39,487 bases of DNA from Candidatus Zambryskiibacteriota bacterium. Its GTDB lineage: Bacteria; Patescibacteriota; Minisyncoccia; Phycocordibacterales; Zambryskibacteraceae. The stretch is from assembly GCA_016180955.1 (NCBI GenBank), contig JACPAD010000003.1, forward strand, positions 45,316 to 84,802, read 5' to 3'. The position numbers and the translations under genes were made by a program. Under the pieces are notes generated by a model. The model worked only from the letters and a program-made list of their open reading frames with translations, did not search any database and had not been told where the DNA came from. This document shows, one piece after another, positions 1 to 14,816 of the stretch (position 1 is its first letter; every line of letters starts with the position of its first letter).

Positions 1-1014
<1,014 letters not shown>

Positions 1015-2009
1015 TCTGGAACTTTCTAAAGAAGGTTTCAGAAGGACTGGGACCGTTTGGATACGGAATAAACAGTTGAATGATTGAATTACACAAAAAG
1101 CTATCTCTTCTTACAGTGATGTAAGAATGGTCCTAAAAAAACACATGGCCGTATGCTGAGAAATCTGTGCACAACAGTGCTGTAGACTCACACTACTAAG
1201 GTATACTATAACCATAGTAACAAAGTGATGAGAGCAGAAAATCAGCAGGAAAGATTAAGAATTGAACAATGGATTCTTGGATTCACAGACGGGGAAGGGT
1301 GCTTCTCGGTAAGTTTTATCAAAAATAAAACTACAAAAACCGGATGGCAAATTTTTCCAGAATTTGTGATTACCCAAGGAGCTAAAAGTTTGCCCGCACT
1401 GGAAATAATAAAAAACTATTTCGATTGCGGAAATCTGTTCGTAAACAAGAGGAGTGATAACCACAAAGAGCACCTTTATCGATATTGCGTAAGGTCTCTG
1501 GATGACTTAAAAACAAAAGTCATTCCGTTCTTTAAGAAAAACTCATTAAAGACATATAAGAGAAATGATTTTGAGATATTCTCAAGAATCGTGGAAATGA
1601 TGTCTGAAAGAATTCATCTAAAAGAAAGCGGAAGAAATAAAATCGCAAAACTTGTAGAAGGTATGAACAGAAAAAAGCAATCTAGATTCTTAAAATCCTC
1701 AGATACCATACGTCGTGCCTGAATTGAAGTTGAAAAGAGGGATCGCTCTCCCCTCAGAAGGAGCACTCCTGTATCCGTGGCTTAGCGGGGAGGAGCAATG
1801 AGTAGGTGTGGGGTAATGGATTCTAAAATCCATTAGGCTAAGCCATGTAATCCCTACGGTAGGCAGCCCCTACCGTTTGGAATTGACCACAAATCAGTTC
1901 CGACCTCAAGGGAGCCGCCACACCCGACTTTCTGCGTGAGAAGGAAAATCTCGCGCCCTCTTTTCAGCTTCAATTCAAGAAGATATGGTACCGTTTTAAG
2001 GAATAACGC
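1015..2009 (+). other. Group I-like intron in 23S rRNA at E. coli ~1931/1932, containing an LHE gene
   Basis: Interrupts the universal CCUAAGGU/AGCGAAAUUCC. Group I R/S-like elements CAGATACCATACGTCG (~1699) and AAGATATGGTACC (~1980) can pair as P7 (TACCATA/TATGGTA). Between them is a 21-bp P8-like helix GAATTGAAGTTGAAAAGAGGG/CCCTCTTTTCAGCTTCAATTC. Exact 3' boundary uncertain. Confidence 0.75.
1225..1722 (+). CDS. LAGLIDADG homing endonuclease (23S intron-encoded), GTG start or ATG at 1228
   Basis: Motif WILGFTDGEGCFSVSF plus family-typical FKKNSLKTYKRNDFEIFSRIVEMM; lies inside the 23S interruption. Confidence 0.88.
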   Translation: MMRAENQQERLRIEQWILGFTDGEGCFSVSFIKNKTTKTGWQIFPEFVITQGAKSLPALEIIKNYFDCGNLFVNKRSDNHKEHLYRYCVRSLDDLKTKVIPFFKKNSLKTYKRNDFEIFSRIVEMMSERIHLKESGRNKIAKLVEGMNRKKQSRFLKSSDTIRRA

Positions 2010-2965
<956 letters not shown>

Positions 2966-3130
2966 GGAAACTAATACATCACTGAAATTTTCCCTGAACC
3001 GCATTGGGTTCAGGGCCGTGCATCCCATGTGGTGCACGGGTCCTGCTAAATGGAATCAACCCCTCGACTCTCGCCTGCGGTGAGCGCAGTCGAACCGCTC
3101 GGGGTAAACTACAATAATTAAATATTTTGC

Positions 3131-3216
3131 CTTGGTGGCTTAACGTAGTGGAACCGCCCGTTCTTACTGTGCCCGCCATAGCCTTCGGTGTCGGCGGGTT
3201 TCGAACCCCAGTAGCA
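3131..3216 (+). rRNA. 5'-half of a second (outer) 5S-like rRNA, with a palindromic insert
   Basis: CTTGGTGGCTTAACGTAGTGGAACCGCCCGTTCTTAC...TTTCGAACCCCAGTAG resembles the intact 5S 5' half. Hairpin CCCGCC...GGCGGG (~3172-3198) is inserted. Confidence 0.55.
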
Positions 3217-3286
3217 GAGCAAGGCTCGCTACGGGACGAAGCACGGAAGCATGTCCCGTACTGAGAAAAATTGTTTAGTGTTGTGT

Positions 3287-3393
3287 TTTGGTGCCTTAAC
3301 GTGAGGGTCACACCTGTTCTCATTCCGAACACAGAAGTTAAGCCTCATAGTGCCGATGATACTCCTTCGGGGGAAAGTAGGTAGGCGCCAGAA
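3287..3393 (+). rRNA. rrf: 5S rRNA (complete, inner copy)
   Basis: TTTGGTGCCTTAACGTGAGGGTCACACCTGTTCTCATTCCGAACACAGAAGTTAAGCCTCATAGTGCCGATGATACTCC...GTAGGTAGGCGCCAGA; termini pair TGGTGCCT/AGGCGCCA. Confidence 0.93.
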
Positions 3394-3432
3394 CAGAGTA
3401 CTAAACAAAGTTAATTTTTCTCTAGTACTGAG

Positions 3433-3488
3433 ACTAAACACAGTAGTGCCGATGATAGTGGCAACGCGAAAGTAGGTAGCCGCCAGAC
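3433..3488 (+). rRNA. 3'-half of the second (outer) 5S-like rRNA
   Basis: ACTAAACACAGTAGTGCCGATGATAGTGGCAACGCGAAAGTAGGTAGCCGCCAGA matches the 3' half of the intact 5S. AGCCGCCA can pair with TGGTGGCT at ~3133 (one G-U). Confidence 0.6.
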
Positions 3489-3504
3489 TAAAATATTGAA
3501 TTGA

Positions 3505-3536
3505 CAAAAAATAGCCTGAAATAAGGCTATTTTTTG
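3505..3536 (+). terminator. Rho-independent terminator of the 23S-5S unit
   Basis: AAAAAATAGCC-TGAAATAA-GGCTATTTTTT. Confidence 0.85.
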
Positions 3537-3561
3537 TACGCCAGAAAGATTGACTTTTAAG

Positions 3562-3595
3562 TTTAAAGGGTGTATAATGTAGAAAGGAGGTCGAC
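3562..3595 (+). promoter_or_regulatory. Sigma70-like promoter (partial) and strong SD for the 3596 ORF
   Basis: -35 TTGACT just upstream (~3550), -10 TATAAT (~3574), then AAAGGAGGT 5 nt before ATG. Confidence 0.7.
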
Positions 3596-3874
3596 ATGGT
3601 TTTGATATACATCATTCTCGTAGCCATTGGTTTTGCGAGTTATAAACTTGTTGGGCTAGTGGCAGCGACAATCATTACGGCTACGGTGGCTGTAGTAGGT
3701 TACGTCACCGCGCTGATCCTTATGAGATTTTTCCCCGATACGTGTGTAAAGTGTGGGGGCACTCGTCTCCAGGAAAACTCTTACACTAGTCTGTTTGTGC
3801 CGTGCATTTGGACTCAGCTACAGTGTCTCGAGTGCGGCGCGATCCAGTACGAGGAAGTCTCGAACGACGAGTAG
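3596..3874 (+). CDS. Small membrane protein with C-terminal zinc-ribbon-like CxxC pairs
   Basis: Two hydrophobic segments, then CVKCGG...LQCLECGA; strong SD. Confidence 0.7.
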   Translation: MVLIYIILVAIGFASYKLVGLVAATIITATVAVVGYVTALILMRFFPDTCVKCGGTRLQENSYTSLFVPCIWTQLQCLECGAIQYEEVSNDE

Positions 3875-11946: not shown

Positions 11947-13472
<1,526 letters not shown>

Positions 13473-14320
13473 AATAAAAGCGCGCAGCAGCTTAGTAATC
13501 TAGGTGGTTAAAGTCCATCTCCAAACAATGCGTTTGGATAGCAGAAAGATAGTCCCAATCCGCGAGGATTTGGATGGAGGATCTGAATGCAAAAGACAGC
13601 CGTACGTAAAAAAGCCAGTTGACCTACTAGTGGGCGGTGAGGGTAGGGAAAACTCACAGAAAAGCTTGTACGGATGCCCGGAATAGAATACTGGGTGACC
13701 TGTGGAGATCTGATGCTGTTATCTTGCAAAAGCAGGATATAATTAAACTGACGCAGCGTCAGAAGTCAGCTGAGTCATAGTACCCCAGAATAAAAAACTG
13801 AGGGAAGGAACTCACTCAAATGCAAAGTCTTACGCCAGACTATATTGTGGGCCTTGTGGACGGTGAAGGAAGCTTCACTGTCTACATTAGAGATGTCGAT
13901 GTGGAAAAGAAAGCTGTCAGGCGGGTAACCGCCGAGCCGAAGTTCTACATCAAGCTTATCGAACGCGATAAGAACATCCTCTACGCTCTGAAGGAATTCT
14001 TTGGGTGCGGCAGTGTATACTTTCAAAAAGATACGAGGCCAAACCATCAGAATTGCTACAGATTCGAGGTCTACAATCGCGATGACTTACAAAAAGTCAT
14101 CATTCCGTTTTTCAAGAAGCACGAACTCAAATTCAATTCCAAAAGAAAAGACTTTAAGACATTTTGCGTCTTGATGGAGATGATGAAAAACGAAGAGCAT
14201 CGCACCAAAGCTGGTTTAAGAAAGATGTTTGCTATCAAGCAGACAATGCATTGAGCTCGCTGCATACGGGAAATCTGTCTGTGCAGTGGGAACGGAAATT
14301 CATAGTTTGATGAATCCAAT
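13473..14320 (+). other. Insertion in 16S between ~E. coli 1399 and 1400; 5' part resembles a group II intron, encodes an LHE
   Basis: Splits CUUGUACUCAC/CGCCCGUC. Segment GCGCGCAGCAGC...GGTGGTTAAAGTCCATC...GATAGTCCCAATCCGCGAGGATTTGGATGG...ACAGCCGTACG...CTTGTACGGATGCCCGG...CTGGGTGACC resembles group II domain I. Confidence 0.6.
13820..14254 (+). CDS. LAGLIDADG homing endonuclease (16S insertion-encoded)
   Basis: PDYIVGLVDGEGSFTVYI ... RFEVYNRDDLQKVIIPFFKKHELKFNSKRKDFKTFCVLMEMM. Confidence 0.9.
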   Translation: MQSLTPDYIVGLVDGEGSFTVYIRDVDVEKKAVRRVTAEPKFYIKLIERDKNILYALKEFFGCGSVYFQKDTRPNHQNCYRFEVYNRDDLQKVIIPFFKKHELKFNSKRKDFKTFCVLMEMMKNEEHRTKAGLRKMFAIKQTMH

Positions 14321-14451
14321 CGCCCGTCAACTCAAGGGAGATGGGAGTACCCGAAGTATCACGTATGTGGTCCCACGGTAAGCTCATCGACAGGGAGTAA
14401 GTCGTAACAAGGCACGGGTAGCGGAAGCTGCTCGTGGAGTAATTCAATTCG
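14321..14451 (+). rRNA. rrs: 16S rRNA, exon 2 (3' terminus approximate)
   Basis: CGCCCGTCAACTCAAGGGAG...AGTAAGTCGTAACAAGG, h45 CACGGGTAGC-GGAA-GCTGCTCGTG, then GAGTAATTCAATTCG. Confidence 0.93.
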
Positions 14452-14606
14452 AAAATCTCTGACGTAATGTTGGAGTGATAGAGTCGATCGATGTTTATAC
14501 ATTGAGTTTGGTAGAAACTTAGAACTACATGACTAACAAAGTGTTGGCGAGAGTCCACCTTCGACAAGGCTACGGTGGATGCTCAATTCGATAAATCGAA
14601 TTGGCA

Positions 14607-14629
14607 AACGGAACAAAATAGAGAACGAT
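14607..14629 (+). other. 3' strand of the 16S precursor processing stem
   Basis: Complement of 11820-11842. Confidence 0.85.
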
Positions 14630-14632
14630 ACG

Positions 14633-14662
14633 CAAAAAACTCGCCTGAGGGCGAGTTTTTTG
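14633..14662 (+). terminator. Rho-independent terminator of the 16S unit
   Basis: AAAAAACTCGCC-TGA-GGGCGAGTTTTTT. Confidence 0.9.
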
Positions 14663-14740
14663 CTATATTCATAGCCACCTAGCCTTCGCTTATCTTCCGC
14701 GCGTTTCGCGTCGCCGAAGCCAAGCTACGGCTTGGCGAAG

Positions 14741-14816
14741 GCGCGCGTAGCTCAGCTGGTAGAGCATTCGACTGATACTCGAAAGGTCTCAGGTTCGACC
14801 CCTGACGCGCGCACCA
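14741..14816 (+). tRNA. tRNA-Ile (anticodon GAT), CCA encoded
   Basis: GCGCGCG acceptor, D arm GCTCAGCTGGTAGAGC, anticodon arm TTCGA-CTGATAC-TCGAA, T arm CAGGTTCGACCCCTG, CGCGCGC-A-CCA. Confidence 0.96.

Follow-up and report, generated by a model that had tools for sequence, protein, structure and literature searches.

A 5S rRNA gene nested within an interrupted 5S rRNA gene in a Candidatus Zambryskiibacteriota bacterium and its relatives

Here, we describe an intact 5S rRNA gene that lies inside a second 5S rRNA gene, the two halves of which flank it, and we find the same kind of nesting in related genomes. The analysis concerned a stretch of 39,487 nucleotides from a Candidatus Zambryskiibacteriota bacterium (contig JACPAD010000003.1, positions 45,316 to 84,802), which we call the window. 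An earlier note on this DNA had pointed to the arrangement; its observation is correct, and the phenomenon is larger than it claimed. We consider it likely that the outer halves are a former resident 5S gene broken by a palindromic cassette bearing a replacement 5S, that the replacement is processed from the hairpin formed by the cassette, and that such replacement from within has recurred. Insertions in rRNA genes are usually introns that are removed, intervening sequences that are excised or expansions that are tolerated; here the insertion would carry the very gene that it destroys. Nested insertion would allow an essential single-copy RNA gene to be exchanged in a single step, at its own locus and still under the transcription of the rRNA operon.

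Two copies of 5S in the window

The window begins inside a 23S rRNA gene (1-2969), and the 5S region comes next (Table 1). The source genome G000 comprises 488 kb in 7 contigs and is about 85% complete; genomes and loci of the comparison are given by G and L numbers. The inner 5S is the sole RF00001 match in this genome, with 77.3 bits against a gathering cut-off of 38, and no match outside 3287-3393 was found even at E 10. The outer copy, which is interrupted, falls below the gathering cut-off as it stands. A covariance model built only from the 3' halves of intact 5S genes found the outer 3' half alone in a search of the whole genome (G000:C4:48740-48800, window 3425-3485; 52.6 bits, E 1.5e-10). 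The outer 5' half alone is weak (30.6 bits, z 9 against 200 dinucleotide shuffles). Using a profile of 142 5S sequences of the same order instead of RF00001, the join of 3131-3216 and 3433-3488 scored 58.3 bits (z 20.6; shuffles 14.0, sd 2.1), the join freed of both hairpin inserts 94.2 bits (z 42; shuffles 13.3, sd 1.9) and the intact inner gene 148 bits, and none of the shuffles in the outer-half tests exceeded 22 bits. The earlier note had claimed that 5S-like halves flank an intact gene, and would have given up its reading if the joined halves scored like shuffled sequence. This claim is borne out, because the joined halves score 20 to 42 standard deviations above the shuffles.

With the inserts removed, 25 of the 27 scored pairs of the outer copy form, including all seven of helix I between piece 1 and the outer 3' end. 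The predicted fold of the 391-nt region 3115-3505 (z -6.2 against shuffles) is closed by the outer helix I and the flanking stem, in which AATATTTTGC pairs with AAAATATT near 3490-3497. Thus the outer copy's helix I and flanking stem, as well as the long stem that encloses the inner 5S, all of which had been read from the letters before, are present in the predicted fold. For 3250-3433, the predicted structure is a single hairpin (-64.4 kcal/mol) that bears the 5S at its apex. Two boundaries had to be moved: the host 5' half at 3131-3216 is real 5S, but it extends to 3249 and contains two hairpin inserts, and the inserted block is real, but its limits are those in the table and not a flanking repeat. 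Automatic alignment places piece 2 slightly differently. Profile column 32, where insert A resides, holds other hairpins in L004, L058 and L100.

Table 1. Parts of the nested 5S locus and its 3' border (window coordinates)
Feature	Position	Strand	Basis
Outer 5S flanking stem, 5' side, AATATTTTGC	3121..3130	+	read directly
Outer 5S piece 1: 5' strands of helices I and II, helix III start	3131..3165	+	5S profile columns 1-32
Hairpin insert A in outer 5S, GCCCGCC...GGCGGG	3166..3198	+	fold -16.9 kcal/mol; not in 5S consensus
Outer 5S piece 2, TTTCGAA, loop C (consensus ATTCCGAA)	3199..3205	+	comparison with 5S profile
Hairpin insert B in outer 5S, REP-like and reversely oriented, CCCCAGTAGC..GCTACGGGACGAAG	3206..3241	+	fold -16.8 kcal/mol
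Outer 5S piece 3, CACGGAAG, helix III 3' strand	3242..3249	+	joint GGAAG|TTAAG, compare L004 and L181
Putative inserted cassette: intact 5S with its precursor stem on either side, between REP-like left end CATGTCCCGTACTGAG and decayed right end	3250..3433	+	one-hairpin fold
Intact inner 5S rRNA gene	3287..3393	+	RF00001 77.3 bits
Outer 5S piece 4: 3' strands of helices II and I, with helices IV-V between them	3434..3487	+	covariance model R1 52.6 bits, E 1.5e-10; nhmmer E 2.1e-7
Outer flanking stem, 3' side, CTAAAATATT	3488..3497	+	fold of 3115-3505
Probable intrinsic terminator AAAAAATAGCCT..AGGCTATTTTTT, 3' of outer 5S	3506..3536	+	sequence read by eye, no tool score

Nesting among relatives, its joints and its ends

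For comparison, we used the 5S genes of the genus, family and order together with 1.5 kb of flanking DNA; most of the genomes are draft assemblies. Across the order, nhmmer found extra 5S pieces in the flanks of 24 of 134 loci, on the same strand throughout. All 11 upstream pieces are 5' parts, and the downstream pieces are 3' parts, save a full tandem copy in L095 and a nearly full one in L091. Joining the flanks across the intact gene gave more than 40 bits at 24 of 133 loci, compared with 0 of 133 for reverse-complemented flanks (maximum 35.9). In every nested case the innermost copy is the intact one. Three genomes of a single genus (L001, L003, L004) show nesting in differing forms, which suggests that it arose independently in each. 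Nesting was also seen in L181 and in L209 (G478), the latter from another order of the same class. A phylum sample of 389 genomes contained 14 with at least two 3'-half matches; among the resolved multi-match genomes outside the order only G478 has two matches close together. Carriers include Ca. Taylorbacteria RIFCSPHIGHO2_02_FULL_43_32b (L100) and Ca. Paceibacterota CRAIB_MAG27 (L003). The 3'-half covariance model detected no interrupted-only 5S in genomes that lack any 5S match, and these genomes are probably missing the contig. A contig scan with the pattern GGGGACASRGMAGTTAAGC returned four matches, three of them the known loci L003, L063 and L100; the fourth, in Algimonas, was judged to be due to chance. 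In L095 (G042) the intact 5S is followed by a full-length degenerate tandem 5S with 5 of 45 conserved positions changed.

Two sites predominate among the joints. Site 1, CCGA|ACACGG in helix III, is occupied in L003, L022, L058, L063, L100 and at the outermost level of L004, and site 2, GGAAG|TTAAG at the foot of helix III, in the window, L004 and L181. The ends of the halves, located independently, fall on adjacent profile columns 40/41 in L003, L058 and L063, and on 49/51 in the window. Removal of the block gives back the consensus, for example CATTCCGA joined to ACACGGAAGTTAAGC in L003. The clearest joints are exact, with neither duplication nor loss, and no target-site duplication was found at the joints of L003, L004, L022, L100 and L181. 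Mobilisation of the IS200/IS605 type (Y1/HUH) inserts precisely, and no duplication is expected from it. Three concentric levels are apparent by eye in L004, where the halves of the middle pair are chimeric and mismatch in helix I; therefore, copies also recombine with one another.

The 9-bp direct repeat GTACTGAGA (3258-3266 and 3425-3433) had been proposed to bound the inserted block, possibly as a target-site duplication. The repeat does exist, but it sits within the cassette ends and not in the target, and it includes the four bases GTAC, a self-complementary part of the stem. We rejected it as a target-site duplication because no well-preserved relative carries a flanking duplication and chance repeats are plausible, about 0.3 pairs of 9 bp being expected in 400 nt by our own estimate, which is not a tool result.

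In the block, the inner 5S and its usual precursor stem are followed outwards by a further stem, the ends of which are conserved: C[AT]TG[CT]CCCGT.. to the left and ..GGGG to the right (L003, L004, L100, L106, L181); the left end in the window, CATGTCCCGTACTGAG, matches CATGYCCCGTA of the relatives. At six loci, all nested, such REP-like ends border the intact 5S on either side, and they do so at none of the remaining loci. It counts against a cassette that only these six nested loci keep recognisable ends on both sides and that the right end in the window is decayed, with TGAGA where GGGG is expected. These ends are also those of a short hairpin, CCCCGTAG-loop-CTACTGGGG, which is dispersed in 63 copies over 32 of 249 genomes, compared with a single copy for the reversed-pattern control, and CCCCGTAG is preceded by CYYG in 25 of the 30 copies inspected. 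REP-like hairpins without a 5S are also inserted in outer 5S copies: at 3206-3241 of the window and, likewise at CCGAA|CA, in L126 and L049. The motif CNTGYCCCGTAG was rejected as a dispersed marker, since it gave 17 matches against 9 for its reversed pattern.

REP elements and IS200/IS605 ends, which Y1/HUH transposases handle in single-stranded form, have as their hallmark a tetranucleotide at the hairpin foot (PMC6006769, PMC3733652). Like REP elements, the CCCCGTAG hairpin is a dispersed, short, imperfect palindrome. Its conserved foot is CYYG, not GT[AG]G or CGTC, and therefore it is a REP-like element and not a GTAG or CGTC REP. Y1 proteins are encoded in 23 of 31 genomes of the family, with three in G000. 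The CCCCGTAG hairpin flanks none of the 20 Y1 (RAYT) transposase loci examined, several of which are flanked by other hairpins, and no Y1 transposase was detected in the nested genomes G013 and G029. Because none of these 20 loci is flanked by it, its foot is not GT[AG]G and G013 and G029 gave no Y1 match, we call the family REP-like and treat its mobilisation by a single-strand transposase of the Y1/HUH type as only inferred.

Two further kinds of element were seen. L170, L177 and L178 are Y1 (IS200-like) genes with a short, gene-specific hairpin on both sides, REPtron-like units in CPR bacteria. Outer 5S copies also share another recurring insert, GTCACGCATAATTTTCTGCTGAAAATTTGCGCGACCCCGCCTCGC...CTCCGGC, which is about 80-130 nt long and in most cases follows GGTCA or CACC (L003 1356-1443, L009 1636-1715, L022 about 1730-1850, L055, L075, L091, L100 1674-1759); in L091 it lies upstream in the opposite orientation.

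Origin and fate of the outer copies

If the outer halves are the two parts of one gene, they should fit each other. In the outer 5S of the window, 18 of the 20 gap-spanning pairs of helices I, II and III are standard. Combining the outer 5' half with the inner 3' half gives 15 of 20, and combination with 132 other 3' halves gives a mean pairing of 77%, with 3 of the 132 matching the level of its own half. The outer copies of L003 and L100 each form 20 of 20 cross-half pairs. Therefore, in the window, L003 and L100 the outer halves each represent one former gene. Among the 11 outer copies with both halves, cross-half pairing is 86.7%, and 75.5% when halves are swapped among them.

The pieces might instead be partial tandem duplications or decayed tandem arrays, with the 5' half copied upstream and the 3' half downstream independently, so that the nesting is apparent only. 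Partial duplication would yield the same order of 5' pieces upstream and 3' pieces downstream, and the loci with a single half (L009, L078, L107), the degenerate tandem copy of L095 and the chimeric outer halves of L004 with their helix I mismatch would be in line with it. Yet the joints are exact and complementary in independent cases, the block is bounded by REP-like ends, and the outer halves of the window, L003 and L100 pair with one another better than with nearly all other 3' halves. We therefore regard this explanation as unlikely.

In the window, helix I is fully paired in both copies, with different bases (outer GGTGGCT/AGCCGCC, inner GGTGCCT/AGGCGCC). These are two genes that diverged while both were working, before nesting. 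Inner and outer copies of nested loci differ at 8-24% of positions. As to a possible foreign origin of the inner 5S, the outer copy of the window is closer to the 5S of 36 other genomes than to its own inner 5S, although genus-mates do not separate the two; in L014, L057, L080 and L118 the own inner 5S is the closest to the outer copy. At conserved columns 0-2 of about 44 positions deviate in outer copies, compared with about 1% in intact genes, a comparison that leans to agreement since the chained alignment permits long gaps. With so few deviations, some outer copies may be of very recent date or remain under constraint, which counts against the reading as relics. This alignment is generous for the insert-rich loci L058, L063 and L072.

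Intact 5S genes show 98.7-99.7% pairing per helix. Compared with this, the 86.7% of the outer copies indicates that they are decaying as a class. Since the innermost copy is always intact, while outer copies lose pairs and gain inserts, the inner one is probably the working copy and the outer one a relic of variable age. The outer copies of L003 and L100 look undamaged apart from their inserts and are thus either young or constrained in some way.

An outer 5S that still functions would need the inserts, including the inner 5S, to be removed and its pieces to be spliced or held as a fragmented 5S. Fragmented rRNA that stays unligated is known for 23S intervening sequences (PMC11270868), the cross-half pairs of L003 and L100 are perfect after removal of three inserts each, and the conserved columns of outer copies are nearly intact. 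However, pairing is reduced in the class of outer copies, the inner copy is complete without exception, and inserts in the core of outer copies are absent from intact genes. No splicing element was recognised: in 2990-3600 no group I or II intron core was detected, with no intron family at E<=10 and none above threshold. We hold a functional outer 5S to be improbable. The same evidence, an innermost copy that is always intact beside outer copies with lost pairs and added inserts, speaks against the earlier suggestion of an outer RNA reassembled after excision of the inner one; the other suggestion, a dead host copy, gains support from relatives nested at other 5S positions with exact joints. 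Chance similarity or an artefact of metagenome assembly can practically be dismissed, since, even though most genomes are draft assemblies and the inner 5S of L181 contains an N gap, the same layout occurs in many families and in independent studies (for example the carriers of L100 and L003), the scores lie 20-42 sd above shuffles and the inner and outer copies are 8-24% different.

We favour interruption of a resident 5S by a cassette, which could proceed as follows. A palindromic cassette would enter a resident 5S gene at GGAAG|TTAAG, the foot of helix III, and split it. The cassette would bring a second, complete 5S with its own processing stem, and its ends resemble the CYYG-CCCCGTAG...CTACTGGGG hairpin family. 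Co-transcribed with the 23S rRNA, it would fold into one long hairpin. Given this fold with the 5S at the tip, the inner 5S could be released by ordinary stem-specific processing. The inner 5S would then serve the ribosome, and the outer halves would be thrown away and decay. Such insertion has taken place many times in the lineage, sometimes within the newer copy, as the three apparent levels of L004 suggest; by repeated insertion, also into newer copies, the 5S gene would be replaced from within.

The REP-bounded 5S units were seen only inside 5S genes, and 5S makes up about 0.02% of such a genome (our own estimate, not a tool result), which points to targeting, local origin or strong survivorship. 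We tentatively raise the possibility, less probable than the general scheme, of a self-propagating cassette, in which a REP-like palindrome with a captured 5S enters resident 5S genes specifically, breaks them and replaces them. If true, this would be a protein-free natural analogue of cleave-and-rescue, in which one cassette after another takes over an essential single-copy gene. A mobile cassette would be a rare example of a small mobile element with a ribosomal RNA gene as its cargo.

Relation to known insertions

Expansion segments of 13-109 nt are known from 5S rRNAs, such as the 108-nt segment of Halococcus and those of 41-46 nt in Thermoanaerobacter (Stepanov and Fox 2021, PMC7812874). 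They have been reported from Clostridia, Pseudoalteromonas and Halobacteria, not from CPR bacteria (PMC7812874). With the nested loci they share hairpin inserts at tolerant bulges of 5S, and the Thermoanaerobacter expansion is rooted in bulge 52/53, which by our own numbering adjoins GGAAG|TTAAG. However, expansion segments hold no gene and leave one 5S that retains the insert, whereas the cassette itself bears a 5S. L182, L183 and L185 (G108, G053, G112), with 5S start at 1463, carry expansions of roughly 60-140 nt in the helix IV/V loop; such CPR expansions are absent from the published accounts compared.

The cassette also resembles the bacterial 23S intervening sequences cleaved by RNase III. 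Both are stem-forming inserts in an rRNA gene, as the fold of 3250-3433 illustrates, with excision expected to occur without ligation. Intervening sequences bear no rRNA, whereas the cassette brings along the very gene into which it is inserted, and the copy that it splits appears abandoned. We file it as an rRNA intervening sequence of a new kind, one that brings a replacement for the interrupted gene. The 16S and 23S genes of CPR bacteria are rich in insertion sequences, either introns of group I/II or other insertions no shorter than 100 bp, and none was reported in any of 645 5S genes, for which cmsearch with RF00001 was used (Tsurumaki 2024, PMC11270868). As RF00001 reports the intact copy only, this would explain why nesting was missed in that survey; for the same reason, annotation misses 5S fragments beside 5S genes, the presence of which nested insertion explains. 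The cassette shares with the CPR rRNA introns the bacterial group and the insert-rich rRNA genes, but it is without a homing endonuclease gene.

REP and IS200/IS605 systems likewise have dispersed short palindromes with a tetranucleotide at the hairpin foot (PMC6006769, PMC3733652). Unlike in REP elements with GT[AG]G or CGTC, the foot here is CYYG, no transposase gene flanked by the hairpin was found and the apical part is replaced by a 5S gene. A literature search, which was incomplete and covered few subscription papers, yielded no previous account of one 5S inside another. Integrative elements that enter tRNA genes restore the gene that they enter. They resemble the cassette in that an essential RNA gene is entered and a working copy is supplied, but the cassette has neither integrase nor attachment duplication, and it carries a whole gene rather than a 3' end.

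The window contains other features of its rRNA genes. An ORF for a LAGLIDADG_1 homing endonuclease lies at 1225-1722 within the 23S rRNA gene (Pfam 7e-23), which is what one would expect of a CPR 23S intron. The region 13731-14254, directly 3' of the 16S gene, holds a group-II-D1D4-1 match of marginal score (36.8 bits, cut-off 35) and a second LAGLIDADG_1 ORF (13820-14254, Pfam 3.5e-17), ahead of tRNA-Ile. The rRNA operon is unlinked, with 23S-5S (1-3500) ahead of 16S-tRNA-Ile (11947-14816) on the same strand, at a distance of about 8.5 kb.
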